DNA of 22,477 nucleotides from a virus, in the IMG/VR virus record IMGVR_UViG_3300049431_000007, positions 1-22,477 of that record. One strand, 5' to 3'. The number at the start of each line of letters is the position of its first letter. Position 1 is the stretch's first letter. A program made the translations under genes and the position numbers. The notes beneath the pieces were generated by a model that saw only the letters and a list, made by a program, of their open reading frames with translations, made no database searches and had not been told where the DNA came from. Shown piece by piece: positions 1 to 22,477 of this stretch.

Positions 1-1143
1 TTCACGATTGCTGCTAGACTGGATCTGAACCTGACATCTCTACTGTCGATCTTGAATGTGACACTGTTTGATACTGTCGGCTTCGCTCCTGATCAGTTGA
101 TCTTCAGCTTCATTAAGGTGATCGTAGAGACTTTCACTACTCAGGAAATTGTACAGAAAACGCTGACCAAGCCCAATGTTGCTGATTCGTTCAATGCCAG
201 TGATATTCAGGCCAAGGATGTGTCCAAACCACTATCTGATACTCAGGCATTGTCGGATACCAATGTCAAGGATGTCTTCAAGGTAATCCTTGACAATTAG
301 GCCACAGCTGAAATCATGGTAAAGGATTTTAGTAAAGAATTGCTTGATTTGCAGGAACTTTCAGATGTCAATGTCAAGGATGTGTCCAAACCACTATCAG
401 ATACACAGGCATTATCGGATGTCAATGTCAAGGATGTGTCCAAACCACTATCTGATACACAGGCATTGTCGGATGCCAATGTCAAGGATGTGTCCAAACC
501 AATCCAAGATGATCAGCTGACTGCTGACGGTAATATCAAGGATGTGTCCAAACCAGACTTGGCCGATTCGTTCAATGCCAGTGATATTCAGGCCAAGGAT
601 GTGTCCAAACCACTATCTGATACACAGGCATTGTCGGACGATAATATCAAGGATGTGTCCAAGCCAATTCAGGATACGCAGGCACTGTCGGATACCAATG
701 TCAAGGATGTGTCCAAACCAGACTTGGCCGATTCGTTCAATGCCAGTGAAATGGTTGAAAAGACACCTACGAAATCACTGGCTGATACCAATACAACGAC
801 AGATTCAACTGTCAACTCCTTTACAAAAAGCTTATCTGATGTGGTCAACACAGAAGATGCGATTACTGAATCTGTATTGTCTGCCGGTAGAACACTCGAT
901 GATACGCCTACTATGCAAGATACGCAGGCGAAGACATTTTCGACATCAAAGGAAGACACGACATCGGTTTCAGACACATTTGTGCGTGTTCCTGAAAAGG
1001 GTCTGTCTGACACGAACAGTGCAAATGACTCTGGTGGGTTAGCTGCATCTCCATTTTTTGTCGGGGATGCTTCCGACGGGAACGAAGTCCAGTAGCGGTA
1101 TTGGGAATATACATATCTGGAAGGTGAACAAGTCTTCACTTGA
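1..1143 (+). CDS. Repeat-rich phage virion protein, C-terminal part (amber-recoded)
   Basis: The frame is open from base 1, so the gene starts outside the window; 380 residues are visible. It is read through TAG at 298-300 and 1093-1095 and ends at TGA 1141-1143. About half of it is a tandem array of an 18-19-residue unit (KDVSKPLSDTQALSDxNV type, roughly residues 53-253). The 298-300 TAG falls exactly at unit position 11, where the other units of this type have CAG. After the repeats comes a Ser/Thr/Asp-rich segment, then an aromatic C-terminus (RYWEYTYLEGEQVFT) reached only by reading the second TAG. There is no catalytic motif. It lies upstream of a tail-fibre-like gene and gp8, so a tail or baseplate-associated structural role is inferred. 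The exact family is not recognised. Taken alone, the stretch before the first TAG would look like a separate small ORF with a TTG start at 52. Confidence 0.85.
157..759 (+). repeat. Tandem 54/57-bp coding repeat
   Basis: About eleven in-frame units of 54 or 57 bp encode KDVSKPLSDTQALSDxNV and a variant KDVSKPDLADSFNASDIQA. Units of the first type begin at 214, 268, 322, 376, 430, 484, 595 and 649. Position 11 of these is CAG at 244, 352, 406, 460, 514, 625 and 679, and TAG at 298. The unit length is a multiple of three throughout, so this is protein repeat expansion, not a CRISPR array. Confidence 0.9.
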
Positions 1144-1209: not shown

Positions 1210-1671
1210 ATGATTAAAGATAATATCCAAGCCAAAGGTTCGCTGAAAGTTGTTCTTTTTGACGAGAATGGCATTGTCAAGGACAGTCGTGAAATTAACA
1301 ACCTCGTTGTGACGGTTGGTCGTTATTTCATTGCATCGCGTATGGTTGGTACCACTGCTAACACGCCTGCACAGATGACGCATATGGCTATCGGTTCAAG
1401 TGCGACTGCTGCTGCTGCTGCTGATACTACACTCGGTTCGGAACTTGGTCGTGTCGGTCTGACTGGTGCTGCCGGTACTGTTGCTGCTAACTCCAACTCA
1501 GCTGTTTTCACTGCTACTTTCCCTGCCGGTACAGGTACAGGTTCAGTGCAGGAAGCTGGCATTTTCAACGCGGCCAGTGCCGGTGTAATGCTTGCTCGTA
1601 CAACTTTCGGTCTTGTTACAAAAGCTGCTGGCGATAGCCTCGCGATTACTTGGACTGTATCCATCGTCTAA
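1210..1671 (+). CDS. Small tail-fibre-like virion structural protein
   Basis: A 153-residue protein starting at ATG 1210, behind a purine-rich AAAGGTAAAG leader, and ending at TAA followed by a second TAA. The N-terminus (KGSLKVVLFDENGIVKDSRE, then NNLVVTVGRYFIASRM) leads into a Gly/Ala/Thr-rich body. The segments MTHMAIGSSATAAAAADTTL, LGSELGRV and QEAGIFNAASAGVMLARTTF are typical of a widespread phage tail-fibre/structural family, ending in a beta-rich AITWTVSIV. It has no in-frame TAG. It sits 29 bases upstream of the gp8-like gene, probably co-transcribed with it. Assignment to the family rests on recalled motif similarity; its location in the tail is inferred. Confidence 0.8.
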   Translation: MIKDNIQAKGSLKVVLFDENGIVKDSREINNLVVTVGRYFIASRMVGTTANTPAQMTHMAIGSSATAAAAADTTLGSELGRVGLTGAAGTVAANSNSAVFTATFPAGTGTGSVQEAGIFNAASAGVMLARTTFGLVTKAAGDSLAITWTVSIV

Positions 1672-1700: not shown

Positions 1701-4355
1701 ATGGCTATTTTGAAGCATGGTCTGAAAACGGCGTTTATCGATTCGTTCGTTGATCGAATCCGTACTGGTCAAACTCGGTACTACTATTGCTTGGGTAAGG
1801 TTTCCCCTTGGGAAATCGATGCTATTCCACCTGCCGAATCTGACAGCGAAAGCTATGAAAGATTTGTGCGTGACAACATCATCACGGCGAGACAAGTGGA
1901 TTTCATCGATGTCGGGCGTGTTGCCCGAAGAATTGATTGGGAATTTGGCAAAGCATACGATATGTATGATGACAAGTTCACCGTAGGAGTTTCAGGCGCA
2001 TAGAACTTGGCATCGGCTGATTTCTATGCGATGAACTCAAATTTCAATGTGTACAAGTGCATTTTCAATAACCTTGGACAGCCATCGACTGTCCAGCCAT
2101 TCGGTATTGACTCGCGCCCGATCACTCTAAGTGATGGGTATACATGGAAATATATTTACACTGTAAATCCTTCAGCACGGACAAAGTTCATGACGAAGGA
2201 TTACATTCCGGTTGCCAACCCACTAGACGAAGTTTACTTCCGCCGTGGTTCAATCGGATCTGTCAACATCAAGTCATCCGGTTCGGGTTACAGTAACAAC
2301 GCTTCCATTCTCGTGCAAGGCGATGGCTTCCAAGAAGCCAACCCATACAGCGTTTTCAATGTGACTGTCGAAAATGGTGGATCTGGTTACACCACAACAC
2401 CTACTGTCACTGTTGCTGCTCCATTTGCTTCGTTCATTTCATACGCTAACGGTGTACCTGTTATTCTTGGGCAGTATGTCAAAAATGGTGCTGGTTACTA
2501 TGAAGTAACGCGTGCTGGAACGCTATCATCGACACCTCCGACTCACTTTACCGGTACTGTTGACTATGGCACTGGATTTGCATCTCTGAAGTATGCAGCA
2601 ACGCAGGCGCTTGCAACTGGAATTTTTGATACTGGTAAGCTTGGTTCTGTGTTCCTAACCAATGCTGGCTTTGGATATACCTTCGCTCCTTCAGTGACCA
2701 TCACTGGTGGCGGCGGTACCGGCGCGACCGCGAATACAACGATTGACGATGGTATCGTTCAGGCTGTATAGATCAGCAACCAAGGCACTGGTTACACCAC
2801 TGATCCTACTATTTCCATTCAAGAACCTTATCCGCTTTTCGATTCAGGTGCACCGCTTCCAAATTCGTATATCGTTTTTGTCGCGTCTAGTGCAGGATCG
2901 GCTGGTCAAATTTACAAGTTTTCTGATGTTACCAGTGAACGATACTACCTAGCAACCACTTCAGGTACTTTCAACTCTGCTGGTCCGACTCATACAGCTG
3001 GTACCGTGACAAACGGGACTGTTGCACTCCAGTATCTTGCTACGCGTGCGGTTGGGATTGCAAAACGAGGAGTCGTGACTTCCGTAAGACTGAATGGATA
3101 TGTTAACGAAGTCAAATTACTGACTCCGGGATCTGGATATGTTCAGGCTTCGACTACAGTGACCATCACTGGTGGTGGCGGTACCGGCGCGACAGCATCG
3201 GCAGTTGTTCAGGGCGGTGCAGTTGTCGCTGTCATATTGACTGCACGCGGTAGCAACTACAATGGAAACATCACAGTAACGATCAATGGGGTTGGTACCG
3301 GCGCAACTGCATCTGGTGATGTCGCATATTCATATGGATATGATCTTCCTCCGTCTGCTACAATTTCGGCTCCGAACATTGCAAACGGCATCAACTCTCA
3401 GATCATTGTCGATGCTTTCAAGACAGAAGCAATCGTACAGGCAGTCGTAGTCAATGGTGCAGTAGCAGGGATCAGTATTATCGATGCTGGTGTCGGTTAC
3501 ACTTACGCTACGCTACTGGTTTCAGGCGGTGACGGTAAAGCTATTGTTGAGCCTATCCTAGATTCCGGTAAGAACATAACCGCGTAGTTGAACAATCAAC
3601 TACTTGCAGTTGCAGGTGCTCTGTCTGGTTTCGTTGTCGAGTCTGGTGGATCTGGTTGGGATTCAGGTGTCTCGATTGAAATTTTAGGTGACGGTACCGG
3701 TGCATCTGCACACGCTGAAGTGTCTAACGGTACTATCACGAAAGTAATTCTCGATTCCGAAGGATCTGGGTACTCGTACGCAACGGTCAATGCGATTGGG
3801 TTTGGTATTGGTGCGGAGATTCGTGTAATTTTGGCACCACCAAAAGGTCACGGTGCAGAACCTGTAAACGAATTCTTCTCGGATGCAGTGTCTTTTTACA
3901 GCACATTTTCGAGTGAGACTAACCAAGGCATTGCCGTAAACAACGACTATCGCCAAGTTTCGATCATGAAAAGCCCATTGAAATTCGGTGGGGAAATGCG
4001 GTTGTTCCAAGATCAACTGGGTAGCACATGCTATTTGCTTGGTACTAACTACAGCAATACCAACTTACTGAGAGATGAAATTCTCACGAGAACTCAAGAT
4101 GGCAAGCGTGTAAGAGTAGTCGCGATTGATGGTAGCAACATTTTAGTGTTGCCGGTTGATCAGATGGAAGTTGCTATCACTGACAACTTCTAGTATCAGG
4201 TTTCTGGTGTCACATACTCGTTCACGATCAATACGATTGCCGAACCTAGCATTGATAAGTATTCTGGTAGTTTGATTTTCTTTGACAATCTTGCTCCATT
4301 CAACTTCTCAGCTCAGCAGAATGTAGCCGTAAAAACCACAGTTAATTTCGGATGA
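1701..4355 (+). CDS. 8: Baseplate wedge subunit, T4 gp8-like, enlarged and amber-recoded
   Basis: An 884-residue protein from ATG 1701 (leader AAGGAATAAG) to TGA 4353-4355, read through TAG at 2001, 2769, 3585 and 4191 (codons 101, 357, 629, 831). The N-terminal ~175 residues are gp8-like: RTGQTRYYYCLGKVSPWEID, FYAMNSNFNVYKCIFNN, then SDGYTWKYIYTVNPSAR and TKDYIPVANPLDE. The C-terminus (VSIMKSPLKFGGEMRL, and after the last TAG SGSLIFFDNLAPF) matches the gp8 tail end. T4 gp8 is about 334 residues; the excess is a central array of Gly-rich beta repeats (GSGYTTTPTVTV, TITGGGGTGATA). In T4, gp8 is a structural subunit of the baseplate wedge. Without TAG decoding the gene would fall into five pieces in one frame, with no in-frame TAA or TGA between them. 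Confidence 0.88.
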
Positions 4356-8665: not shown

Positions 8666-9820
8666 ATGACTGGAAGTTCATACATTCCAAAAGACGGAGC
8701 GAGTTTGGTTCAGACTAAACTCGGCGACGAGACTTTTGCGACAGATCTTGGCACATTACCGCTTGGTGATATTGCGGTAGAAAGTATTCCGAATACGAAG
8801 TTGGCGGCTGGCATTCGCAATGATGTTTTGAATTTCCGTAATAAGCTATTCCCGTTGATGGTAGTGGCACATACCACACAACCTGTGATTACAGTGTATG
8901 GTCAAGATGTAGATACCTTCAATAAGATACCTAACCCAGCTTCTGCTGTAGTAGGTGATGGTAGAGGGTGCTCGTTCTCTAAGGATGGCAGATACTTAGC
9001 CGTCGCTTCCACATTATCGCCGTTCATAACTGTATACAAGAGATCAGGTGAGACTCTATCAAAGTTGCCAGCACCAGATGTTCTACCAACTGGCGTAGGT
9101 AGTGGTTGCTGTTTTTCAGATGACATGAATTACCTGACAGTAACCCATGCTACGACACCGTTCATCACGATTTACAAAAGGTCAGGTGATGTCTTTACCA
9201 AGCTGGCTAACCCAGCAACATTGCCGACTGGTACGGCTTACGATGCCTCGTTTTCGAAAGATGGGGTGTATCTTGCTGTACCACAGAATACCACACCGTT
9301 CATCACCATCTACAAAAGATCAGGTGATACATTCACGAAACTTGCAGATCCAGCGACATTGCCAACTGGCATAGGTAGAGCAACATCATTCTCGTCAGAT
9401 GGTCTTTACCTCGCAGTCGCATTTGAAGCAACTCCATTTGTGTATGTATACAAGAGATCTGGAGATACATTTACTGTTCTAGCAAACCCAGCAACATTAC
9501 CCACTGGTCTTTCAGAAGGCATTTCGTTTTCAACCGACACTGTATATCTTGCTGTTTCTCATGCTACAACTCCATTCATCACGATCTACAAGCGGTCAGG
9601 TGATACCTTTACAAAGTTAGCAAACCCAGCTACTCTGCCTGCTTCGACGGGGAATAGTTGCTTATTTTCACCAGACGGAAATTATCTTGCCGTCGCGCAT
9701 AACAACACACCGTTTGTTACTATATACAGTCGTTCAGGTGATATATTCACTAAGCTTGCGAACCCAGCAACATTGCCGACTGGAGCTGGGTTCGAAATTG
9801 ATTTTACAAAAACATATTGA
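8666..9820 (+). CDS. Seven-bladed beta-propeller virion protein, paralogue 1
   Basis: A 384-residue protein from ATG 8666 to TGA 9818-9820, with no TAG. A short N-terminal segment (about 65 residues, including VESIPNTKLAAGIRN) is followed by seven WD40/lactonase-like blades. Each blade has the pattern FSxDGxYLAVxHxTTPFITIYKRSGDTFTKLANPATLPTG. The outer-strand motif (ITxY followed by GQ, KR or SR) occurs exactly seven times, and the C-terminus (GAGFEIDFTKTY) supplies the closing strand. Two full paralogues follow at 9829 and 11569. A receptor-binding or adhesin role at the tail is inferred from position between fibre and baseplate genes; no enzyme motif is visible. Propeller structure is inferred from repeat number and spacing. 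Confidence 0.85.
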   Translation: MTGSSYIPKDGASLVQTKLGDETFATDLGTLPLGDIAVESIPNTKLAAGIRNDVLNFRNKLFPLMVVAHTTQPVITVYGQDVDTFNKIPNPASAVVGDGRGCSFSKDGRYLAVASTLSPFITVYKRSGETLSKLPAPDVLPTGVGSGCCFSDDMNYLTVTHATTPFITIYKRSGDVFTKLANPATLPTGTAYDASFSKDGVYLAVPQNTTPFITIYKRSGDTFTKLADPATLPTGIGRATSFSSDGLYLAVAFEATPFVYVYKRSGDTFTVLANPATLPTGLSEGISFSTDTVYLAVSHATTPFITIYKRSGDTFTKLANPATLPASTGNSCLFSPDGNYLAVAHNNTPFVTIYSRSGDIFTKLANPATLPTGAGFEIDFTKTY

Positions 9821-9828
9821 GAATTTGA

Positions 9829-10941
9829 ATGGCTTATATTGGAAATAAAAGTAAAGCTTCTGTTATTGCAGAAAATATACCTGCTAGCAGCATCCCAGCA
9901 TCTCAGATTGATGATGGATCTATCTCACCGTATTCATTTAACCTCACATCTCAGGAGGAGATGTTTGATGTTGATAGTTATTTGGCTGTTGGGCATGCCA
10001 CATCACCATTCGTGACAATTTACAATCAAGATGTTGATACATTCAGCAAAGTCCCAAATCCTGCGAACTTGCCAACATTTCACGCTTATAGTATGGACTT
10101 TTCTTCTGATGGCGTATACCTAGCAGTTGGTTACAATGCAGCATAGAATTTGATAATATACAAGAGATCGGGAGATACCTTTACCAAGCTGGCGAACCCA
10201 GCAGTATTTCCATCTATTCAAGTAAATGGTTGTTCATTTGATAATACAGGTTCTTACCTAGCAACAGGAGCAGGTGAGCCAAACACGCTAGTTATATACA
10301 AAAGATCAGGTGATACCTTTACAAAGCTGGCTGATCCAGCTGTTATGCCACCCTAGTAGGTAAATGAGTGCGTTTTTTCATCAGATGGAGTATATCTCGG
10401 TGTAGTTAATAATGGCAACCCAAGTGTATAGATTTACAAGAGGTCTGGCGATGTATTCACTAGACTTTCAACTCCTGATATTATACCTTCAAATGTTGCA
10501 GGTGGTTGTTCATTTTCTACTAATGGCGATTATTTCTCTCTAACTACTAATAATCCTCCGTGGTTATACATATACAAAAGAAGTGGTGATACATTTACAA
10601 AACTTCCAGATCCAGCTATATTACCACCTACGACTGGCAATAGTTGCTTTTCTAATAATGGTGATTACTTAGTATCAACATATGGCACCACCTCACCATA
10701 TTGTATAATTTATAAAAGGAATGGAGATGTATTCGATAAGATAAATGACTTAGATGTTGCTCCGACAAATGTACCTAGGAAGTGCAGGTTTTCTTCGGAT
10801 GATAGATACCTTGCAATTGCATCTGATCAGACACCATATATTCAAATATACAAGAGATCGGGAGATACCTTTACAAAGTTAGTCAACCCGATATCTTTAC
10901 CGACTAATGCTGCCCTTAGCGTAGCTTGGTTCCCTAAATAA
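9829..10941 (+). CDS. Seven-bladed beta-propeller virion protein, paralogue 2 (amber-recoded)
   Basis: A 370-residue protein from ATG 9829 to TAA 10939-10941, read through TAG at 10144, 10354, 10357 and 10429 (codons 106, 176, 177, 201); 10354 and 10357 are adjacent. The N-terminal region differs from its paralogues (MAYIGNKSKASVIAENIPAS). Seven IYKRSGD-type blade motifs are then present, but only when all TAGs are decoded. The TAG at 10429 (PSV-TAG-IYKRSGD) aligns with CAA in the last blade (PYIQIYKRSGD, 10843). The TAG at 10357 (TAG-VNECVF) aligns with CAA in the preceding blade (QVNGCSF, 10219). Both support Gln. It starts 8 bases after paralogue 1 ends, so translational coupling is likely. 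Confidence 0.85.
10934..10940 (+). promoter_or_regulatory. Candidate late promoter box CTAAATA
   Basis: CTAAATA overlaps the stop codon of propeller 2 and ends 27 bases before ATG 10967, nearly the spacing seen at the two fibre genes. Downstream, AGAAT/ATTCT (10950-10965) can form a weak 5-bp stem with the AGGTAA ribosome site in its loop. Confidence 0.35.
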
Positions 10942-10966
10942 AATTTTACAGAATAGGTAAATTCTA

Positions 10967-11569
10967 ATGTATGCAGTATTTGACGAAAATGGTATTTTTC
11001 TAGAAGGCCCATCAAACCTAAGATCTAGATTCAAAGATGTTCAAGACTTCCATCTTCTTTCAGAAGAGCAGAGACTAGCACTTGGCTGGTATCCATGCAC
11101 TGTGCAAAATGAATCATATGACCCACTGTTCGAGGATCGTCTCTACCCGACTGCTGTTCTGGATTATGTTACATCTACAGCGGTCGTTACTTATATTATC
11201 GAAGAAAAGACTCTCGAATTTGTCAAGAGAGAAATGCTTTCTCGCGGGAAAGAACTAACGAATTCTAAGTTGGAAGCACTAGTCAATAGCATACCACAAT
11301 TGGAAATGCTTTCATGGGCTAAACAAGAAGCAGATGCTAAGAGTTTTATCAGCAACGGCACATCTTCTGCTATGCTTGATACGCTTGCATTTATCAGAAA
11401 TGAAACAGTAGAAGTGCTTTGCCAAAAAATTCTAGGCAAATCAGCCCAATTTGCTACAGTTTCAGCTCAACTGATTGGTGAATGGCATGTGTTTGAAAAG
11501 AAGGTAAATAGCGCAACAACAAGAGTTGAATTGGAAGAAGTTCGCGGATTTATTGAAGGCGGTGAATAA
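10967..11569 (+). CDS. Probable tail fibre assembly protein (DUF4376-like)
   Basis: A 200-residue protein from ATG 10967 (AGG nine bases upstream) to TAA 11567-11569. The last A of its stop is the first base of the next ATG (TAATG), so the two are translationally coupled. The N-terminus (MYAVFDENGIFLEG) and the LALGWYPCTVQNESYDP segment resemble small chaperone-like genes next to phage fibres. The helical C-terminal half (VKREMLSRGKELTNSKLEAL, MLSWAKQEADAKSFISNGTS, LDTLAFIRNETVEVL) resembles the DUF4376 domain found in tail-fibre-assembly proteins. It lies between propellers 2 and 3, suggesting it helps fold or mount them. The role is inferred from motif style and position. No TAG. Confidence 0.65.
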   Translation: MYAVFDENGIFLEGPSNLRSRFKDVQDFHLLSEEQRLALGWYPCTVQNESYDPLFEDRLYPTAVLDYVTSTAVVTYIIEEKTLEFVKREMLSRGKELTNSKLEALVNSIPQLEMLSWAKQEADAKSFISNGTSSAMLDTLAFIRNETVEVLCQKILGKSAQFATVSAQLIGEWHVFEKKVNSATTRVELEEVRGFIEGGE

Positions 11570-12693
11570 TGTCATCAAATGATTCTTATATCGGAGAAAT
11601 CCCGCTAAGACAAAACCCAGCAGTTACTGGGCAGATTAGTGGAGATGTTCTTGCTGATGGGTCTGTCACTTTTGATAAGTTGAACAAGGGAATTTTACAG
11701 CAGGCTATTGCATCTCAGTTTAGTCAAGAGAAGCAGATGGTTATAGCTCATGCAAACTCTCCATTTATAAGTATATACAACCAAGATATTGACAGGTTTA
11801 CAAAAAGTGCAAACCCATCTACATTGCCAACAGGAATTGCTGTAGATTCTACATTCTCATCAGACGGTGTATATTTGGCAATTTCGCATACTGCTACACC
11901 ATTTATAACAATCTATAAAAGATCTGGAGATACATTTACAAAGTTAACAAACCCAGCAACATTACCGCCCGGTCAATGTCGCGGCGCGAAATTTTCTTCT
12001 GATAATACATATTTAGCAGTTGGTCATGCAACCAGTCCGTATGTAACGATCTACAAGAGATCGGGTGATACCTTTACTAAGTTGGCAAACCCATCTACAT
12101 TACCGACGGGTGAAGGCACGAGCTGTTCTTTTTCCTCTGATGATGCATATCTAGCCGTTTCTCACGGCACATCACCCTGTATCACGATCTATAAAAGATC
12201 TGGAGATACATTTACAAAGTTAACAGACCCAGCAACATTACCGACTGATGTTGGGTATTCGTGTAATTTCTCTTAGGATTCTTCTTATTTACTAGTTGGA
12301 TAGGGTGTCACTCCATTTGTTACCATTTACAAGAAGTCAGGTGATACATTTACCAAGCTGGCTGATCCAGCTACATTGCCGACTTCTTCTGGATTTGGGA
12401 CATCATTTTCATCAGATGGTCTTTATCTTGCTGTAGTTCATTCTACTACGCCTTTTGTTACCATTTACAAGAGATCAGGTGATACATTTACGAAGTTGGC
12501 TGATCCAGCTACACTGCCTGAAAGCGGTGGATAGGGAGTTTCATTTTCATCAGATGGTCTTTATCTTGGTGTAGTTCATTCTACTACGCCTTTTATTACC
12601 ATTTACAAGAGATCAGGTGATACATTTACGAAGTTGGCAACCCCAGAAACAATCCCAACTGGTCTAGCATAGGGTGTAGCATTCTTCCCATAA
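11569..12693 (+). CDS. Seven-bladed beta-propeller virion protein, paralogue 3 (amber-recoded)
   Basis: A 374-residue protein from ATG 11569 to TAA 12691-12693 (followed by TAG, giving TAATAG), read through TAG at 12274, 12301, 12532 and 12670 (codons 236, 245, 322, 368). The unique N-terminus (SNDSYIGEIPLRQNPAVTGQ) precedes seven IYKRSGD-type blades. Stopping at the first TAG would leave four blades and a broken ring; full decoding gives seven and a closing GVAFFP strand like paralogue 2's VAWFPK. One TAG (12301, VG-TAG-GVTPF) replaces a position that is His in other blades. The last two TAGs occupy the same position in successive blades. Proposed role: tail-tip receptor binding, by analogy with its position; not demonstrated. 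Confidence 0.85.
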
Positions 12694-12838: not shown

Positions 12839-15800
12839 ATGAGTGATATCAAAGCCTTCAACACCACACCGCACTTCGATGACTTCGATGAGAAGAAGAA
12901 CTTCCAACGAGTTCTCTTCCGTCCTTCGATCCCAGTGCAGGTGCGCGAACTGAACCAGATGCAGACTATCCTGCAAAATCAGATTGCAAATTCATCTTCG
13001 TTCTCGTTCCGCAACGGTGCCCGTGTTGCCAACGGTGAAACCTCTTTGGTAGACAAGATTTCGTACATCACTGTCACCAACCTGACGAACGAGATCCAGA
13101 ACTACCTCGGTGCTACTATCCGTCGTATCGTGCTTGGTGCTACTGTTCTAGAAGCAACTGTCATCGCAGTTTCTAAGAAGACAGCTACCGATCCGAATGT
13201 GCTCTATGTTAGCTACAAGTCATCAGACTCGAATTCAGGACAGCCAGAATTCCAGCCAGCCCAGACACTGACATTGATCTTTGCAGATGTCAATCAGGCC
13301 AATGAAATCATCACTGTCGCTGCTAATGGAAAAGCTCTCGGATTCTCTGTCAACGAAGGTATCTACTACTTCAACGGCCAGTTTGTCCATGTACCGAAGC
13401 AGTTCGCAATCGTCAACAAGTTCAGTAACACCCCAGAGAACACCGAAGTATCGGTAGGGTTCAACATCTACGAATCTGTCGTAACACCGGAAGAAGATGC
13501 TTCTCTGTTCGATAACGCGATTGGTAGTCCAAACGAATCGGCACCCGGTGCATATCGCTACCGCGTGCAGGCAATCTTGACCACGAAGGCCGATCTGGAA
13601 GCTGGTATCCTGAACAGTGTTGTTAACTCGGAAACAGTCGATGTTCCAGATGCCACGACTGACATCCAGAATTACTACGAGCTGGCTATCGTCAAAAATG
13701 GTTCGATCCAGCTCAAGCCAAGACAAGATGGTGACATCTCAGTTCTTGAACAGACACTTGCACGCCGTACATTCGACGAGTCTGGTGACTACATCGTAGA
13801 TAACTTCGCCATCCAGCTCAATGAGCATTTGAACGGTCAGGTTATCAAGACTGGTACCTACTCCCAGTCAGCTAACACGATTACTGTGACCGTGACTGCT
13901 CATGGTCTTTCTATCGGCGACACTGCATACCATGATTTTACCTCTGGTACATCGACTGACAACAGCTATATCGTCACTGCCGTTGATGCCATCGATCCAC
14001 TGAACAAGTACACTGTTACTGCTAGAGATTCGAAGACGACTTCTGGTAATGTGACAATTCGTTATGGCGAAAATGCTGGTCTTTACACGGCAGCTCAAGG
14101 TGGATCAGAAGCCAAGCTTGCTGTTACTCTTGACAAAGGCAAGGCGTATGTCCGTGGATTTGAAGTCGCCACACGCGGTAACACTTTCCTTGATTTGAAC
14201 AAGGCAAGAACTACTCAGATCCTACAAAATCAGCTGGTACAGCTCCAGTTTAATCAGGCATTCTATGTCTACTCTGCTTCGGCTACGCAGAATCTGGCGA
14301 ACCCTATTCTGTTCCAGAATGTGCAACTTCGCAATGCTGCTAACGCGGTCATCGGTACAGCGTTCGTTCGTGGCTTTAAGTTCGATTCGGTAAAAACAAT
14401 CACGGCAGTAAGCAAGAATGTTTACCGTCTTGATGTTATCGATGTCGTGTTCACTGGCACTAACGCGTTCCCTAATGTTGACAATATTCTCGGCACTGGC
14501 ACATACCCATTTGCTGGTAAGGTTGTTCCTGCTGATCAGACTTCTTTCATCGCAAATCAGAAAGAGTCTACACTGATCTGGTCTGCTGCTAATGGTTTCA
14601 CCAAGTCAACGATCCATCAGCTGTTCTCTCGTTACTATGAGAAGAACCTAACCACTACTTCTGCCGGTGGCGGAAGCCCGACACTGATCACTTTCTCAAC
14701 AGAAACTGCCGGTGAAACTTTCGATGCCGACCCTTCTTCTTTTGCTGTGTTCGTTGATCACCCTTCAGTTGATGTTTCTGGCATCCCTCAGTCAGTAACA
14801 CTGTCAAACGCAAACAAGACCGCTACTCTTGATGTAACCAACCTTACTGGTGTAGGTCATAACGGTATAGCAGCTATTGTGACCTCTCAAGTCTATAAAA
14901 CAGATGCAGTGAAGCGTTCAAAGACATTGACCGTCGCACCGGCATTGACAACTGCATCAAAAGCTGTTATCACGCTGCCGAACACCGATGTGTTCAAAGT
15001 GCTTTCCGTAAAGAATGCTGCTGGTCAGGAAATCAAGGATTTCTACACGCTAGACAACGGACAGCGTGATCAGTTCTACGCACCCGGTGCACTGAAATTG
15101 AGAAATGGATTTGCTGCTCCTACTGGTAATGTGACGATCACATTCTCGTATTTCGCTCATGGTACAGGTGATTACTTCTCGGTTGATTCGTACACCAACA
15201 TCAGCTATGATAAGATCCCTGACTATGTTGACAGTCAGAACAAGACATACTTCTTGGGTTCATCAATTGACTTCCGTCTTGATAGACCTACGACGACAAG
15301 CATGCCAATCGTCGGTGCCAACGCATTCTATCCAAACGATCCTCTGATCCAGACAGAAGAATTCTACCTGTCTCGTATGGACAAGCTTGTACTGACAAAG
15401 CGCGGTGAGTTCCAAGTTGTGGAAGGTGTACCGGCTGTATCCCCAGAGCTGCCAATTGAGCCAGTAGACGCAATCTCGCTATACAACATCAATCTACCAG
15501 CATACACATTTGATGTGCGTGATGTGACTGTATCGAAGTTGGAATATCAGCGATACACGATGAAGGATATTTCCAACATCGCAACCAGACTGAAAGATGT
15601 CGAAAATGCGACATCACTGTCACTGCTGGAAAATTCGATCAACTCTCGTCAGGATTTCAACAAGTACCGTAATGGTTTCTTCGTTGACACTTTCCAGAAT
15701 CAGGTTGCCGCTAACATCAATGACCCGTACCACTATGTCGGCTACGACATGAGCAAGGGTGAACTGAGAGCTGCAAACAGAACCTACAGCGTGAGCATGC

Positions 15801-18388
15801 AGGTAAGTACAAACTCCGGTCTTCGTGCACATTCTGATGGTGTGTACACGCTCCAGTACAGCGAAGTTCCATTTGTGAATCAGCCACTGGCATCCACGAC
15901 AATTAGAATCCAGCCATACGCACTTTCTGATTTCATCGGTGACATGAGCCTGAACCCATCGACAGACATCTGGTTTGACGGCAAGACTGTCAACACTTTC
16001 CAAGATACATCTGGCGTGTTCACTCAGCGTTACACTTTCGATAAGCCAACATCTGGCTACGATAGACGCTTGAATTACACGACTTGGGATGTTACCAACG
16101 GAATCTGGACAAATGTCAACACAGGTAAAGTTGCTACTGCACTTGAAAAGTCTTTGATCGAAGCTGGCATCAGGCGTGCTCCTGACCAGATTACAGGTAC
16201 AGCAGTTAGCTCAAGCACCACGCTTGCCAGCACAACTACTTCTTCTACTGCTATCCCGTACATCCGCAGTAAGTTGATCAATTTCACCGCAAACGGACTA
16301 AAGCCACAGACAAATGTGTTCTTGAAATTCGATGGAAAGGATATCACCTCGTATGCTGGTATTACCGAAGCGACAATCGGTAATGGACTGGTTACATCAG
16401 GTGGTGGTTCGATCTCAGGTGTGTTCCGCATCCCGAACAATGACACGATCAAGTTCTTGACAGGAAAGCGCCATGTCGTGGTTACCGATGTCGGTGGAAA
16501 CAACGAACAGTATGACGGTACAGTGGCTGATTGCTTCTACGAGGCAGCTGGCACGCTTGTAACGACTACCAACACCTTCGTTAACACAAAGACAAGCCAG
16601 CAGTCGATTCGTGTATACGATCCCCTTGCTCAGTCTTTCTTTGTGAAGGAAGATCAGTTCGATGATGGTATCTTTATCTCTTCGATTGATGTATACTTCG
16701 GACCCGGCATCAGCCCTGCAACGAACACAGAGTCCGTTCGACTTGAAATTCGCAACATGGTCAACGGTTACCCCGGTCCAGATATTCCGCACAATGGTAA
16801 AGTGACTGTTCCTGCATCTGGTATCACTGGATCGAAAGACGCTTCGCTTGCTACTAGATTCACATTCCCGTCACCGGTTTTCTTGGAAGGTGATAGCGAA
16901 TACTGCTTCGTGCTGGTTTCGAAATCGGAAACGATAAACATCTGGGCATCAAAGCTTGGACAGAAAGCTGTTATCGCAGGCGAAACTGTTCCTAACTCTG
17001 GTCAGGAAATCAGCAAACAACCGTACCTCGGTTCACTGTTCCTGTCTCAGAACAATACCACATGGACAGCTGAACAACTGATGGATATGAAGTTCAAGAT
17101 CAATCGTTGTCAGTTCGGTTCACAGGGTTCACTGTCACTGTCGAATGTTCTACCAACATCTGAATCCTTTACTGACTCCGATGAATACACTACGCTGTTG
17201 GATACAAACCCATTCAGCTTCACATCTGGTTCAACCAGCATGAGAGTGTACGATTTCGGTCATGGTTTCAAAGTCGGTGATCGCGTGAAGTTGTATAACC
17301 CAACGGTGACCGCATCTAATGTTGCTCAGATCTCGTACAATGGTGTTGCTGCACAGAACATCTATACGGTAGGTGCCTTCAACGCTACTGGTTTGCTGAT
17401 CACTGAAGTCGATACACCGATTCGTGCAAACACGACATACAGTCAGACTGGTACGACCATCACTGTAACGATTGCAAACACTGATTTTACTGTCGGTGAT
17501 GTTGTCACGCTTGATTTCACCACAGGCACTGCAATTGACGGTGATTATACAATCACCGCAGTTACTGATGCTAACTTCACGGTGACATCACCGGTTTCGA
17601 CAACTACCTCTGGTAATGTCACCGTGCTGATCGATCCCGGCTTCGGTAGCTATGTTGTGACATTGGCGACCAGTGCTACATCGACAGGTCGTAATGGTGG
17701 TGAAGGTAACAAGGCAAATCGATACATCGATTTCTCTACACTTCGTCTGCTGTCGGATGCTGTTGTTCTTTCAGGTACATCGATCAACTACGAATACCGT
17801 ACCAGATCGTTCCAGACGAATGCAATCGGTAGCTTCGAAAGCATCCTGCCGAATGTGGAAATGACACAGCCATCGCAGAAGCTGATCCTGACTTCAGGTG
17901 ACTCATCTGCCGGTTTGAATGTTTCACTGCGCTCGACAAAGAACAACCTGTCTCCGATCTTCGACAAAGACAGAGTTACGCTGGTCGTTCAGAAAAACAT
18001 CATCAACAACTTTGGTGATGTGTTCAACGGCAAGCAGTTCGGCGCTACTGCAAGATATGTGCAGCGCCCGATCACTGTTGTGAACCCATCAAACAACATC
18101 GATGTGTTCTTGGATCTGAACCTACCATCCGGTTCATCAGTGAAAGTTTACTACAGAACAGGACAGTCAAGCGTTTCTGGCATCTGGAAAGAAATGCCAC
18201 TGAGCATCGGTGACAATCTGGTGAACACAGATGACCCGACATTGTTCAGAGAAACAAAGTTCTCGACAGGTGATACTCCGCTTGCAGAGTTCTATGTTTC
18301 ACAGGTCAAGATCGTTCTCTTGAGCGACAACCGTGCTAAAGTTCCGCGTATCAAGAACTTCCGCTCGATTGTCAACAACAAGTTCTGA
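12839..18388 (+). CDS. Very large tail/baseplate structural protein, DUF4815-type
   Basis: A 1849-residue protein from ATG 12839 to TGA 18386-18388. The N-terminus has the DUF4815 signature: FNTTPHFDDFDEKKNFQRVL, then PVQVRELNQMQTILQNQIA. The second half carries the block shared by large structural proteins of T4-like cyanophages: YDPLAQSFFVKEDQFDDGIF near residue 1260, EIRNMVNGYPGPDIPHNGKV, FTFPSPVFLEGDSEYCFVLV, and KQPYLGSLFLSQNNTTW near 1393. The C-terminus ends KVPRIKNFRSIVNNKF. Two copies of a ~65-70-residue beta module are inserted at residues 338 and 1532. There is no TAG in 1849 codons although Gln is frequent, mostly as CAG. Probable role: peripheral baseplate or fibre-connector protein; the exact position in the virion is not known. 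Confidence 0.85.
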   Translation: MSDIKAFNTTPHFDDFDEKKNFQRVLFRPSIPVQVRELNQMQTILQNQIANSSSFSFRNGARVANGETSLVDKISYITVTNLTNEIQNYLGATIRRIVLGATVLEATVIAVSKKTATDPNVLYVSYKSSDSNSGQPEFQPAQTLTLIFADVNQANEIITVAANGKALGFSVNEGIYYFNGQFVHVPKQFAIVNKFSNTPENTEVSVGFNIYESVVTPEEDASLFDNAIGSPNESAPGAYRYRVQAILTTKADLEAGILNSVVNSETVDVPDATTDIQNYYELAIVKNGSIQLKPRQDGDISVLEQTLARRTFDESGDYIVDNFAIQLNEHLNGQVIKTGTYSQSANTITVTVTAHGLSIGDTAYHDFTSGTSTDNSYIVTAVDAIDPLNKYTVTARDSKTTSGNVTIRYGENAGLYTAAQGGSEAKLAVTLDKGKAYVRGFEVATRGNTFLDLNKARTTQILQNQLVQLQFNQAFYVYSASATQNLANPILFQNVQLRNAANAVIGTAFVRGFKFDSVKTITAVSKNVYRLDVIDVVFTGTNAFPNVDNILGTGTYPFAGKVVPADQTSFIANQKESTLIWSAANGFTKSTIHQLFSRYYEKNLTTTSAGGGSPTLITFSTETAGETFDADPSSFAVFVDHPSVDVSGIPQSVTLSNANKTATLDVTNLTGVGHNGIAAIVTSQVYKTDAVKRSKTLTVAPALTTASKAVITLPNTDVFKVLSVKNAAGQEIKDFYTLDNGQRDQFYAPGALKLRNGFAAPTGNVTITFSYFAHGTGDYFSVDSYTNISYDKIPDYVDSQNKTYFLGSSIDFRLDRPTTTSMPIVGANAFYPNDPLIQTEEFYLSRMDKLVLTKRGEFQVVEGVPAVSPELPIEPVDAISLYNINLPAYTFDVRDVTVSKLEYQRYTMKDISNIATRLKDVENATSLSLLENSINSRQDFNKYRNGFFVDTFQNQVAANINDPYHYVGYDMSKGELRAANRTYSVSMQVSTNSGLRAHSDGVYTLQYSEVPFVNQPLASTTIRIQPYALSDFIGDMSLNPSTDIWFDGKTVNTFQDTSGVFTQRYTFDKPTSGYDRRLNYTTWDVTNGIWTNVNTGKVATALEKSLIEAGIRRAPDQITGTAVSSSTTLASTTTSSTAIPYIRSKLINFTANGLKPQTNVFLKFDGKDITSYAGITEATIGNGLVTSGGGSISGVFRIPNNDTIKFLTGKRHVVVTDVGGNNEQYDGTVADCFYEAAGTLVTTTNTFVNTKTSQQSIRVYDPLAQSFFVKEDQFDDGIFISSIDVYFGPGISPATNTESVRLEIRNMVNGYPGPDIPHNGKVTVPASGITGSKDASLATRFTFPSPVFLEGDSEYCFVLVSKSETINIWASKLGQKAVIAGETVPNSGQEISKQPYLGSLFLSQNNTTWTAEQLMDMKFKINRCQFGSQGSLSLSNVLPTSESFTDSDEYTTLLDTNPFSFTSGSTSMRVYDFGHGFKVGDRVKLYNPTVTASNVAQISYNGVAAQNIYTVGAFNATGLLITEVDTPIRANTTYSQTGTTITVTIANTDFTVGDVVTLDFTTGTAIDGDYTITAVTDANFTVTSPVSTTTSGNVTVLIDPGFGSYVVTLATSATSTGRNGGEGNKANRYIDFSTLRLLSDAVVLSGTSINYEYRTRSFQTNAIGSFESILPNVEMTQPSQKLILTSGDSSAGLNVSLRSTKNNLSPIFDKDRVTLVVQKNIINNFGDVFNGKQFGATARYVQRPITVVNPSNNIDVFLDLNLPSGSSVKVYYRTGQSSVSGIWKEMPLSIGDNLVNTDDPTLFRETKFSTGDTPLAEFYVSQVKIVLLSDNRAKVPRIKNFRSIVNNKF
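13850..14059 (+). repeat. Beta module insertion, copy 1 in DUF4815-type protein
   Basis: Encodes 70 residues from TGTYSQSANTITVTVTAHGL through YTVTARDSKTTSGNVTI. It is homologous to the copy at 17432-17626 (shared TYSQ..TITVT, DFT.GT..D..Y.ITAV and TTSGNVT). It looks like an accretion domain common in phage fibre proteins. Confidence 0.75.
17432..17626 (+). repeat. Beta module insertion, copy 2 in DUF4815-type protein
   Basis: Encodes 65 residues from TTYSQTGTTITVTIANTDFT through SPVSTTTSGNVTV. It is a diverged paralogue of the 13850 module, about 1190 residues downstream in the same protein. Confidence 0.75.
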
Positions 18389-18390
18389 TC

Positions 18391-18597
18391 GTGAGCAAAC
18401 AGACAGTAAATGGATTTGAAGGGGTTCTCGAAAGAGATCCCTTGTCAAATGCTGTCGTGAATGTGGATACCGAAGGATTCAAAGCATTCATGCAACGGAA
18501 GCAAGAAAAGCTATCGATGGAAGCAAGAATGTAGGTAATGGAAGCTCGTATTGCAAGGCTAGAAACCATACTAGGCATGATCCAGATAGATAAATAA
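18391..18597 (+). CDS. Small coiled-coil phage protein (amber-recoded)
   Basis: GTG 18391 starts two bases after the DUF4815-type gene's stop and is read to TAA 18595-18597, passing TAG at 18532-18534 (codon 48): 68 residues. The N-terminus (SKQTVNGFEGVLERDPLSNA, VVNVDTEGFKAFMQRKQEKL) resembles a short conserved protein of T4-like phages that sits beside structural genes. The C-terminal half (EARM-TAG-VMEARIARLETILGMI) has the heptad spacing of a coiled coil, and the TAG falls inside it, where Gln would be tolerated. Cut at the TAG, the protein would lose its helix. Function unknown. Its last codons overlap the promoter box for the next gene. Confidence 0.75.
18589..18596 (+). promoter_or_regulatory. 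Candidate T4-type late promoter GATAAATA
   Basis: GATAAATA overlaps the stop of the small coiled-coil gene and ends 28 bases before ATG 18624. Box and distance are identical to those at 4354-4361 before the first long fibre gene. Ribosome site GAGG is at 18615-18618. Confidence 0.5.
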
Positions 18598-18623: not shown

Positions 18624-20945
18624 ATGTCTATCATCATCCTAAGAACTGTAAAAGGTTCTCCTATCACTGCTGCCGAGGCAGATGCAAACTTCAACAACTT
18701 GAATGTCGATAAAATCGAACGAGTTGTCAGTGTCAATGACGCAAATCCTGCTATCAGGATTACGCAGGTTGGTACCGGACATGTATTCCTAGCAGAAGAC
18801 TCAACAAATCCAGACGCTACCCCATTTGTTATCCGAAATGATGGTAAAGTTGGTATCGGTACATTGTCACCTACCGTTGCGCTTGAAGTCACTTCTGACA
18901 TCAAAGTAAGCGTACTCAATATCGGTACGGGTGCCGGAAACATAGCAACGAACACTGCTGTCGGTAGAACTGCACTGAGCGTCAACACGACAGGTAACAA
19001 TAACACCGCTTTTGGCAGTGATTCACTGAAAGCAAACCAGTCTGGTAACCAGAACACCGCTGTCGGTAGTAGAGCGATGATTGCCGTCTCTATTGGTTCC
19101 AATAACACTGCTATCGGTAAAGATTCGATGCTGGTTGCAACCACATCCGCTGATAACACCGCTGTCGGCTACCAGACGCTGCTGGCGCTTACTTCTGGTT
19201 CTGGGAATACCGCCATAGGGGTTGGATCTCTGCGTGCAGCTACGACCGTCTCAGACACTCTGGCTATCGGTAAGAATGCACTTGCTGCTATGACAACTGG
19301 CACTGCAAATACGGCTGTTGGTGTTGGTTCCCTTGCATCTGTCGTGACCGGTTCCTCGAACACGGCATTGGGTAATGCTGCCGGTGCCATTACAACTGGA
19401 TCTGGTAATACCCTACTAGGCGCATCTTCTGGATCACTCCTGACAACTGGTACAAAGAATACTTTCATCGGTGCCTACAGTGGTAACCAAAACTCACTCA
19501 ATTTGATAGCTGCAAGCAACAACATTGTCATTTCAGATGGCGATGGCGTACCTCGAATATATGTCAATACCACTGGCGATTACCTGCTGAATTCGGTCAC
19601 GAGCAACAACTACAAGCTTCAATTGGTTGGTAATGGTTCTTTGCTCTCGCTGAGATCGAGCACAAACTCAAACGAATTGCGAGTCAATACTGAAGCTGGC
19701 TTGGTTGCTATCAATGCTTTCTCTGATGCTGGAACAGGTGCACTTGCGATAAGACGAGAAGGTACTGATGTCATCCGCCTGACTCCGAACAACAATGTGC
19801 TCATCGGTGAAACTCTTGAATCGACATAGGGTAAGTTCAGAGTGAAGGGTGGTACTGCCAACGGCACGACTGCATATTTCCTTTCTCTGAATGTTGATTC
19901 TGGACTTGATATTCTCGCTGGTTATAAGCTGGAAGGTTCCACAAACGCAACCCGCGACGATACAGTTTCTACCATCCGCTCTACTAGCGGTGCACTGGCG
20001 TTTGCCACCGCATCGACTGAACTGGCAAGATTCGCAATCACTTCCGGTAACCTGATGATCGGAAGTGTGGTAGATTCTAACCACAAGATCCAAGTCAGAC
20101 TCGACAATTCCGCATCGCAGGCATTGTTCCTGAACTCAGGTGCATCAGCAGATGCAGGTATCGATCTCAGCCTGTCAGGTGCCAATGTCACGAGCATCAG
20201 AAAGCTAAGATCCGACAACAGCTTGAGCATCATCAGCAATTCAGTTGAACGCATGCGCATGCTCAATGCAGGCTACTTGAAAGCTTCGGCATCTGGTGCA
20301 TTTGAAGATGTTGCTGGGACATTCCACGAGTTCGGGTCTTCTGCAAACACAACATCTCTGATGGTAAAGAACACCAACACTGGATCTGCCGTAAACAACA
20401 TCTACTCTAACCTTGCCACTGGCGCTACCGGAAACCTGTACATCGGGTTCACTGGCGGTGCAGCTGTCTACCGTGTATCTGCTAATGGTAATGTTGCCAA
20501 CACGAACAACTCGTATGGTGCTATTTCCGACTTGAAGCTGAAGGAAAACATCAATGATGTCTCAAGCAAGCTTGACAAGCTGAATCAAGTCAGGATCGTC
20601 AACTATACTCTGAAAGCAGATCCAGCTCAGAACAAGTTGGTTGGTGTGATCGCTCAAGAGCTTGAAGAAATTTTCCCAAGCCTGATTGAAGAAACAGACG
20701 ACATCGAAACCGTCATCGAAACCACAGAAATTCCAAAGACTAGACTCGTGCAGGATAGCGAAGGTGCCCTTTACGAAGAGGATTATATAGAAGTAGAGGA
20801 AAGAGAAGTACAGCGAGCTTCTGGGACTAAAACAAAGTCCGTGAAGTATTCCGTTTTCATCCCTTTACTGATAAAATCAATCCAAGAGCTTACCGAACGC
20901 AATAGTGCACTGGAAGCTCGAATCACTGAACTGGAGCAAAGATGA
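18624..20945 (+). CDS. Tail fibre with C-terminal peptidase S74 chaperone (amber-recoded)
   Basis: A 773-residue protein from ATG 18624 to TGA 20943-20945, read through TAG at 19827-19829 (codon 402). The N-terminus (IILRTVKGSPITAAEADANF) resembles the 4389 fibre. Residues about 105-295 are NTAVG / NTAIG repeats like those of trimeric adhesin heads. Then comes a beta shaft with NVLIGETLEST-TAG-GKFRVKGG, where phage fibres typically have a short Gly/Gln linker. The C-terminal S74 domain has the SDLKLKENI motif (Ser635 the likely self-cleavage nucleophile) and GVIAQELEEIFPSLIEE. It ends in a coiled coil (SIQELTERNSALEARITELE). In this family the S74 domain assists trimer folding and cleaves itself off. 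Terminating at the TAG would leave a 401-residue fibre with no chaperone. Confidence 0.9.
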
Positions 20946-21196
20946 TGGAACTTAACATTGATGGCGTAATTCACAAGATCGAAGACCTTTCACCGCTGGC
21001 AAAGCACTGCGTAGAACAGCTTCAATCTCTAAATACTGAAGAGGTGAACCTACAGGTTCGTCTTGAGCATATTGAGATCATCAAGCAGGCATATATCAAG
21101 ACATTGAGAGATGTCGTGCCTGTACCAGAGGAAGCTAAAAATGTAGAAGTTGAAAGTGTTGCTGTAGAAGTTGAAGGGTCGGTTAACGCCGAGTGA
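20942..21196 (+). CDS. Small phage protein, DUF6447-like
   Basis: An 84-residue protein. ATG 20942 overlaps the fibre stop (ATGA); a second ATG at 20945 is an alternative start. GGAG at 20933-20936 serves either. The N-terminus (MELNIDGVIHKIEDLSPLAK, then QLQSLNTEEVNLQVRLEHIE) matches the layout of DUF6447 proteins common in T4-like phages: a short beta start, then a helix. The C-terminal tail is a Val/Glu-rich low-complexity run (NVEVESVAVEVEGS) and ends at TGA 21194-21196. The molecular function of the family is unknown. Translational coupling to the fibre gene is likely from the overlap. Confidence 0.75.
   Translation: MMELNIDGVIHKIEDLSPLAKHCVEQLQSLNTEEVNLQVRLEHIEIIKQAYIKTLRDVVPVPEEAKNVEVESVAVEVEGSVNAE
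21127..21132 (+). promoter_or_regulatory. Shine-Dalgarno-like AGAGGA before ATG 21141
   Basis: AGAGGA ends eight bases before an ATG at 21141 that is in frame with the downstream small membrane protein. That ATG is followed immediately by TAG, so this start is usable only if TAG is sense. It is the best ribosome site for that gene, better than the one before TTG 21171. Confidence 0.4.
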
Positions 21197-21365
21197 AATC
21201 CTTCGTCTGTTGAAACAACCCAGTACCAAGCGTGGCTTGATTGCCGCCCTTGGTCTACTGGGTTACCAGATTGCACCGGAATACATCGAACAGATCGTAC
21301 AAGGTACAATCGCTGCGTTTGCAGTGTATGAAGGACTAAGAGACGGCGATAAGACCGTCAGTTGA
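21171..21365 (+). CDS. Small hydrophobic phage protein, possible holin or membrane protein
   Basis: 64 residues if started at TTG 21171, ending TGA 21363-21365; it overlaps the preceding gene by 26 bases. A basic N-terminus (KGRLTPSEILRLLKQPSTKR) leads into a hydrophobic stretch (GLIAALGLLGYQIA) and a second mildly hydrophobic helix (EQIVQGTIAAFAVYEGL), ending with charged residues. This is the shape of a small phage membrane or holin-like protein, but no family is certain. With TAG decoded as Gln, the frame extends upstream to ATG 21141 (M-Q-K-L-K-V-L-L-Q...) behind AGAGGA, or even to ATG 21111, so the true start is uncertain. It is the last gene of the rightward cluster. Confidence 0.55.
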   Translation: MKGRLTPSEILRLLKQPSTKRGLIAALGLLGYQIAPEYIEQIVQGTIAAFAVYEGLRDGDKTVS

Positions 21366-21864
21366 CCCTCAGATAGCAGGTAAGGATGATCTTCTTACCT
21401 GTTTTCACTTCTGTACCACAATGCGGGTTTTCCCAAGTCGGCGAAAACACCAAACAATCTCCAGCATCCCCACGAAAGTAGCCATGTTCATGGTACTGCG
21501 TTTCTCCGCCTGTGTATTCATCGTTCAAATAGAACAGGAATCCAAGAACTCTTCCAATGGTGTCCTTTGTCACTGCATCAACATGCCAGTACATTGAATC
21601 ACCGGGTTCGTAGACTTTGATGTTTGCGAGTTCGATGATAGGAGCATCTGGGAAAACATAAGACATGCCTATGTTATCAAGATAGAGATATCTCAGCGTA
21701 TGCAGCTGGGAGATGACCGACTTCCGAAGACTGGGTGGTATCGGATATGTTGTGAACCGACTATTGCCGGTTTCATTGAGAATTGGCTGACTGGTTTCTA
21801 GACTATCGATAATGGCCTTGCAGTCCTCGCTACCGAGGACTGCCCTAAAAAGTTCTGGCTTCAT
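21358..21864 (-). CDS. 2-oxoglutarate/Fe(II)-dependent oxygenase, prolyl-4-hydroxylase-like
   Basis: A 168-residue minus-strand protein, start ATG 21864-21862, stop TGA 21360-21358. The iron facial triad is visible as HxD in MYWHVDAV (His94, Asp96) and His148 in NPHCG. Lys157/158 in TGKKIILTCYL lie about ten residues on, where the 2-oxoglutarate-binding Arg/Lys is expected. Other family marks are KVYEPGDSMYW, LGFLFYLNDEYTGGET and GDCLVFSPTWENPHCG. Such oxygenases are common in T4-like marine and freshwater phages; substrates (protein, nucleic acid or small molecule) are generally unknown. Its start overlaps the end of the upstream small gene by four bases (ATGA), suggesting coupled translation. 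Its end overlaps the rightward 21171 gene by eight bases. No in-frame TAG. Confidence 0.88.
   Translation of the reverse strand: MKPELFRAVLGSEDCKAIIDSLETSQPILNETGNSRFTTYPIPPSLRKSVISQLHTLRYLYLDNIGMSYVFPDAPIIELANIKVYEPGDSMYWHVDAVTKDTIGRVLGFLFYLNDEYTGGETQYHEHGYFRGDAGDCLVFSPTWENPHCGTEVKTGKKIILTCYLRVN
21377..21405 (+). terminator. Intrinsic terminator ending the structural cluster
   Basis: CAGGTAAG (21377-21384) pairs perfectly with CTTACCTG (21394-21401) around a 9-base loop, followed by TTTTC. It lies just after the last rightward stop and inside the 3' coding end of the convergent oxygenase gene, where it encodes part of TGKKIILTCYL. Confidence 0.65.
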
Positions 21865-22077: not shown

Positions 22078-22477
22078 TTAAATTCTATATTCTTTCAAAA
22101 CTTTACTTTCTTCGTGCATACCATTGCTTGATGTCCTAGCACATCTTCTTGAACAGTAGTCACTTTTCTTTGTCTTTATCACAAGGTGTGTATTGTTTCT
22201 ACTTTTAGAGAAAATTGCATCACATACGCCACATTGGATCTCGACCATCTATTTCGATTTTCTATTCTACAAAATTCCTTTCAAGTTATTTTGATAGACT
22301 GTCAAGATTTGAAAATTTTCAATCCTGTCATCTAACTTATCTCCGTTTATGTGATCGACTACTAGCTCATCATCAATGAAATTCCCAATTTCTACTGATA
22401 ACAGATACCTAGCATATGATACCGTTGATCTATCATCTTTAGAATTGTATAGGATCACATTTCTTCTCGGTTCTTTG
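22078..22477 (-). CDS. HNH homing endonuclease with cysteine-rich C-terminus (amber-recoded, 5' partial)
   Basis: A minus-strand frame open from the right edge, read through TAG at 22269-22267 and 22251-22249, ending TAA 22080-22078; 132 residues are visible. Before the first TAG: RSTVSYARYLLSVEIGNFID, then the HNH core ELVVDHINGDKLDDRIENFQ, then ILTVYQNN. Between and after the TAGs: NRKSK, then MVEIQCGVCDAIFSKSRNNT and HLVIKTKKSDYCSRRCARTS. The CxxC and CxxxC pairs are a zinc-finger-like arrangement typical of the C-terminus of phage HNH proteins. Ending at the first TAG would remove all four cysteines. A GTG at 22458 could start a shorter product, but the frame continues upstream (KEPRRN). 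Probable role: mobile endonuclease gene at the edge of the late cluster. Confidence 0.85.

Follow-up and report, generated by a model that had tools for sequence, protein, structure and literature searches.

The question raised by this locus is whether TAG ends its genes or encodes an amino acid and, if the latter, which one. We examined a linear viral record of 22,477 bases (the window), whose genes are tail genes (Table 1). Within the annotated reading frames, 18 in-frame stop triplets were found, all of them TAG, with no TAA and no TGA (P = 2.6e-9 under equal likelihood of the three stops). This count omits two TAGs of the frame 21111-21365, a small overlapping gene, because they lie upstream of the gene's likely start. 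In the remaining frames, TAG was the least common of the three stop triplets (132 TAG, 222 TAA, and 403 TGA), so the in-frame excess is not a matter of composition. It was noted that the genes always end in TAA or TGA and never in TAG, and that TAG is read through in seven of them (genes 1, 3, 7, 9, 11, 12, and 16). Under code 15, coding density rose by 7-8 points, from 84 to 92% or from 90 to 97%, as computed from stop-to-stop ORFs.

Table 1. Genes, repeat features, and in-frame TAG codons of the window.
Feature	Position	Strand	Remarks
Gene 1, 5' end cut	1..1143	+	C-terminal part, baseplate-associated protein with repeat array; ends TGA
Repeat array (gene 1)	214..702	+	Eight 18-codon units: 214, 268, 322, 376, 430, 484, 595, 649
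TAG unit (gene 1)	268..321	+	TAG at position 11 (298-300); most divergent 18-codon unit
Gene 2, tail-associated protein	1210..1671	+	phrog_5417
Gene 3, baseplate wedge protein	1701..4355	+	phrog_438; weak Phage-Gp8 match; ends TGA
Gene 7, beta-propeller-like repeat protein	9829..10941	+	Ends TAA
Gene 9, beta-propeller-like repeat protein	11569..12693	+	Ends TAA
Gene 10, large tail/baseplate protein, VrlC-like	12839..18388	+	No TAG; ends TGA
Gene 11, small virion protein	18391..18597	+	phrog_473; ends TAA
Gene 12, tail fiber protein	18624..20945	+	C-terminal peptidase S74 chaperone; ends TGA
2OG-Fe(II) oxygenase gene	21358-21864	-	Orientation opposite to tail genes
Gene 16, HNH endonuclease, 5' end cut	22078..22476	-	Ends TAA
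Gene 1 in-frame TAG	298, 1093	+	
Gene 3 in-frame TAG	2001, 2769, 3585, 4191	+	
Gene 7 in-frame TAG	10144, 10354, 10357 (tandem), 10429	+	
Gene 9 in-frame TAG	12274, 12301, 12532, 12670	+	
Gene 11 in-frame TAG	18532	+	
Gene 12 in-frame TAG	19827	+	
Gene 16 in-frame TAG, codon starts	22269, 22251	-	
TAG 1093	1093..1095	+	Opposite Gln of C-terminal motif Q-x-Y-C-D-(I/L)-T-Y-F-A-E-D-Y-V
TAG 2001	2001..2003	+	13 Gln, 19 Thr of 40 homologues; Gln in most nearest relatives
TAG 3585	3585..3587	+	Gene 3 column is Gln in 35/35 standard-code homologues

Two accounts in which TAG is not a regular sense codon were weighed against these counts. The first takes the TAGs as nonsense mutations or errors stemming from gene decay, a chimeric contig, or bad assembly, a suspicion to which a metagenomic fragment without close kin is open. 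However, all 18 in-frame stops are TAG, the frames are otherwise intact, and conservation continues past each TAG, and we give this account a practically negligible chance. The second takes TAG as a normal stop at which mostly truncated products are made and a regulatory, leaky readthrough supplies the downstream parts. Readthrough extensions occur in other systems, and the decoder tRNA was not found in the fragment, both of which speak for this account. Against it, there are four TAGs in each of genes 3, 7, and 9, with a tandem pair in gene 7, so that low-level readthrough would yield almost no full-length product; in addition, TAG ends no gene, and the homologues are full length without a stop at these sites. 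We consider leaky readthrough very improbable. The pair in gene 7 (10354-10359) consists of adjacent TAG codons in the same frame, an arrangement that is by itself hard to square with leaky readthrough.

Gene content and order mark the window as a tail-gene segment of a T4-like (Kyanoviridae-like) phage. Its tail genes match T4-like phages, and the fragment does not include the major capsid, portal, and terminase genes by which Crassvirales are recognized. Homologues of genes 1, 2, 3, 4, and 10 were found in Synechococcus phage BUCT-ZZ01 (ON615601, Kyanoviridae), where the order of genes 2, 3, 4, and 10 is identical. In contrast to the window, the homologous genes of BUCT-ZZ01 contain no in-frame TAG, protein identity is approximately 30% (gene 3), and the gene-1 homologue is located apart, directly after gp6; this homologue matches the PHROG 'baseplate wedge subunit'. 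Genes 4 and 12 encode tail fiber proteins. Three neighboring beta-propeller-like paralogues (genes 6, 7, and 9; 8666-12693) carry 0, 4, and 4 TAGs, respectively. No tRNA and no other Rfam match was found in the 22.5 kb fragment. It was noted that relatives of the HNH endonuclease of gene 16 adjoin tRNA genes in several unrelated phages (L094, L095, L096, L098, and L099), so tRNA genes might sit just past the end of the window.

We assembled relatives from approximately 245 related IMG/VR loci found by profile scans and 51 more from one genome-contig scan. No clear recoded sister emerged, whether from IMG/VR relatives of genes 10, 3, and 2 or from genome-contig relatives of gene 3. Four loci (L244, L224, L186, and L196) were considered as recoded on account of a coverage gain and were rejected; they contain long TAG-free genes, and their TAGs lie mostly near ORF starts or in opposite-strand ORFs, so the gain is not a sign of recoding. 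Genes in the relatives nearest to the window by gene 3 ended in TAA 198 times, in TGA 18 times, and in TAG 16 times, and since TAG ends genes there, it is a stop in these relatives. The window occupies a long branch in the gene 3 tree (1.5 changes per column), which leaves its exact place in the tree unsure. The single-protein scan with gene 10 returned no close relatives, the repeat DNA was not found in IMG/VR in exact or degenerate form, and phage records contained no DNA-level match.

The residue specified by TAG had been claimed from the repeat array of gene 1, for which a preliminary description held that a single C-to-T change within a repeat with an invariant Gln, in a unit that otherwise still aligns, shows TAG to be glutamine. 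The codons are exactly as it gave them, position 11 being CAG at 244, 352, 406, 460, 514, 625, and 679 and TAG at 298, and the gene 1 frame remains open downstream of TAG 298. The C-to-T change does not stand alone in the unit, as the TAG unit (KDVFKVILDN*ATAEIMV) shares 7 of its 17 other residues with the neighboring KDVSKPLSDTQALSDTNV and differs at 10. Invariance of the Gln holds within the 18-codon type and fails for the three 19-codon units (KDVSKPDLADSFNASDIQA type), which have no Gln. The numbering of the site as codon 100 applies to the window only, because the window begins inside gene 1. One of the 19-codon units lies within the array (538) and the others at 157 and 703, such that the two repeat types are interleaved over 157-759. 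Over 56 bases, the 19-codon units at 538 and 703 share 96% identity, which suggests that copying within the array was recent.

Position 11 was also tabulated across 275 repeat units taken from gene-1 homologues in other phages (21 proteins), where it was Val in 84 (31%), Ala in 53 (19%), Gln in 26 (9%), Phe in 26, Ile in 21, and Ser in 18. The gene-1 homologue of BUCT-ZZ01 has 18-residue repeats with Gln at the equivalent position, and the array of L100, the other of the nearest arrays, has Gln there as well. Going by these units, position 11 is regularly Gln in this array and its closest kin, BUCT-ZZ01 and L100 among them, and not beyond. Because the TAG unit is the least similar to its neighbors and the Gln is local to the array and its nearest kin, the array by itself would give a modest preference for Gln and leaves the residue unfixed. 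The glutamine meaning drawn from the repeat is nevertheless well supported, with the support coming mainly from TAG 3585, TAG 1093, TAG 2001, and a calibrated test over many sites.

Single columns shared with standard-code homologues were more informative. The window residue was masked as X before alignment for both TAG 3585 and TAG 2001, and the count for TAG 3585 in Table 1 refers to the homologues that reach the column. Pairwise alignments blur the site of TAG 3585, and a multiple alignment with the anchors LL..G places it cleanly. The column corresponds to Q629, which is invariant in A4 and A5, and in the same gene 3 alignment the window has the consensus residue in 32 of the 34 other near-invariant columns. 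At TAG 1093, the motif position was Gln in 31 of 35 instances in a motif search that did not require Gln, and gap-free matches to L178, L182, and L184 set Gln opposite the TAG. Homology continues beyond TAG 1093, which is therefore not the gene end. A global alignment of the gene-1 C-termini was dropped since it misplaced the short motif, and the gap-free motif match was used instead. Many of the remaining TAG sites fall in variable columns, and each of these says little singly.

The sites were further assessed together by a classifier applied to their alignment columns, for which the window's own sense codons, masked, served as the training set. Over the 18 TAG sites Gln scored best, followed by Glu (-8.9 nats), Lys (-13.9), Asn (-14.0), and Thr (-17.2). 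Gln was still best when the array site was left out (Glu at -7.5 nats) and when both the array site and TAG 3585 were left out (Glu at -6.2 nats). When the classifier was run on control sets of 18 true Gln sites, 78% of draws came out as Gln and 15% as Glu, and true Glu or Asn sets came out as Gln in 17-19%; given these error rates, the classifier alone is not proof. An earlier masked-column test found that the TAG columns resemble masked Gln columns and rejected Tyr, Trp, Leu, Lys, Pro, His, Phe, Ile, Val, Asp, Cys, Met, Arg, Ala, and Gly. A first, uncalibrated count of homologue residues placed Asn, Ser, and Thr above Gln, and this ranking was dropped because, in the masked controls, true Gln columns of these genes gave the same picture as the TAG columns.

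These results also bear on the possibility that a different kind of suppressor tRNA inserts Glu, Asn, Ser, or Lys at TAG. The array leaves room for such a residue, and in one test the TAG columns were also compatible with masked sites of Glu and Asn. However, the Gln counts at TAG 3585 (35 of 35) and TAG 1093 (31 of 35) stand against it, as do classifier margins of at least 8.9 nats, and we regard another amino acid as very improbable. Alignment of TAG codons with Gln of standard-code homologues, a feature of code 15, was found at 3585, at 1093, and in the calibrated test. Taken together, the classifier, TAG 1093, and TAG 3585 make a strong sequence-based case for Gln.

From the sequence comparisons, TAG is almost certainly read as glutamine in this T4-like phage fragment. 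We place the probability at roughly 0.95 that the window is the baseplate and tail-fiber region of a T4-like (Kyanoviridae-like) lytic phage with genetic code 15, in which TAG is Gln and TAA and TGA are stops. The putative decoder would be a tRNA with anticodon CUA, charged with glutamine; as the fragment holds no tRNA, we infer this decoder, and it may be encoded by the phage outside the fragment or supplied by the host. Such a tRNA would outcompete release factor 1 often enough for full-length virion proteins to be made from genes with up to four TAGs, including the tandem TAG-TAG. The repeat unit with TAG at position 298 would then be decoded as KDVFKVILDNQATAEIMV.

The TAGs are unevenly spread among the genes. 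Gene 10 has 77 Gln codons (66 CAG and 11 CAA) and no TAG, and its smaller neighbors have up to four (P = 0.0005 for a random allocation of TAGs among Gln codons). Its bias toward CAG relative to CAA is also stronger, at 66:11 versus 75:58 in the other genes (P = 9e-6). The pattern would be accounted for if a slow codon is avoided in so long a virion gene, or if gene 10 was acquired recently from a phage with the standard code. We tentatively entertain, as a possibility on the doubtful side, an isolated and sparse TAG-to-Gln switch in an otherwise standard-code T4-like clade, with TAG a slow Gln codon that is absent from gene 10 and tolerated mostly at variable sites.

Phages with code 15 are known from Crassvirales and other groups, with proof by metaproteomics and mass spectrometry in two crAss-like phages (PMC9523058), and the known route is a suppressor tRNA with anticodon CUA that is charged with glutamine (PMC9523058, PMC10879173). 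Similar to these code 15 phages, the window carries TAG codons within the frames of virion structural genes, uses TAA and TGA as stops, and has Gln as the residue. It differs from them in being a T4-like tail region without close kin, in using TAG for only 18 of its 228 Gln codons, and in that no suppressor tRNA was seen within the fragment. Code 15 recoding is also sporadic across other Caudoviricetes families, among which Demerecviridae is named (PMC11210395). The window resembles these cases as a scattered recoded lineage whose relatives keep the standard code, and it differs in that the lineage is T4-like and Kyanoviridae-related. A small search of open papers found no report of recoding in this T4-like lineage.

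The glutamine meaning of TAG in phages is already known, and what is new is one more lineage, a T4-like one, so that this recoding now extends to a T4-like tail region, TAG still being a stop in its relatives. For reading codon meaning, a single repeat unit is a weak guide, and a single column that is invariant across homologues is a strong one. If the switch is indeed isolated and sparse, a code change would have been caught early. Surveys have applied a rule to contigs below 100 kb by which code 15 must raise coding density by at least 10% (PMC10879173), and recoding this sparse, with TAG at 18 of 228 Gln codons, can end up close to that threshold or beneath it. Such phages may therefore be missed, and their baseplate genes may be annotated piecemeal.
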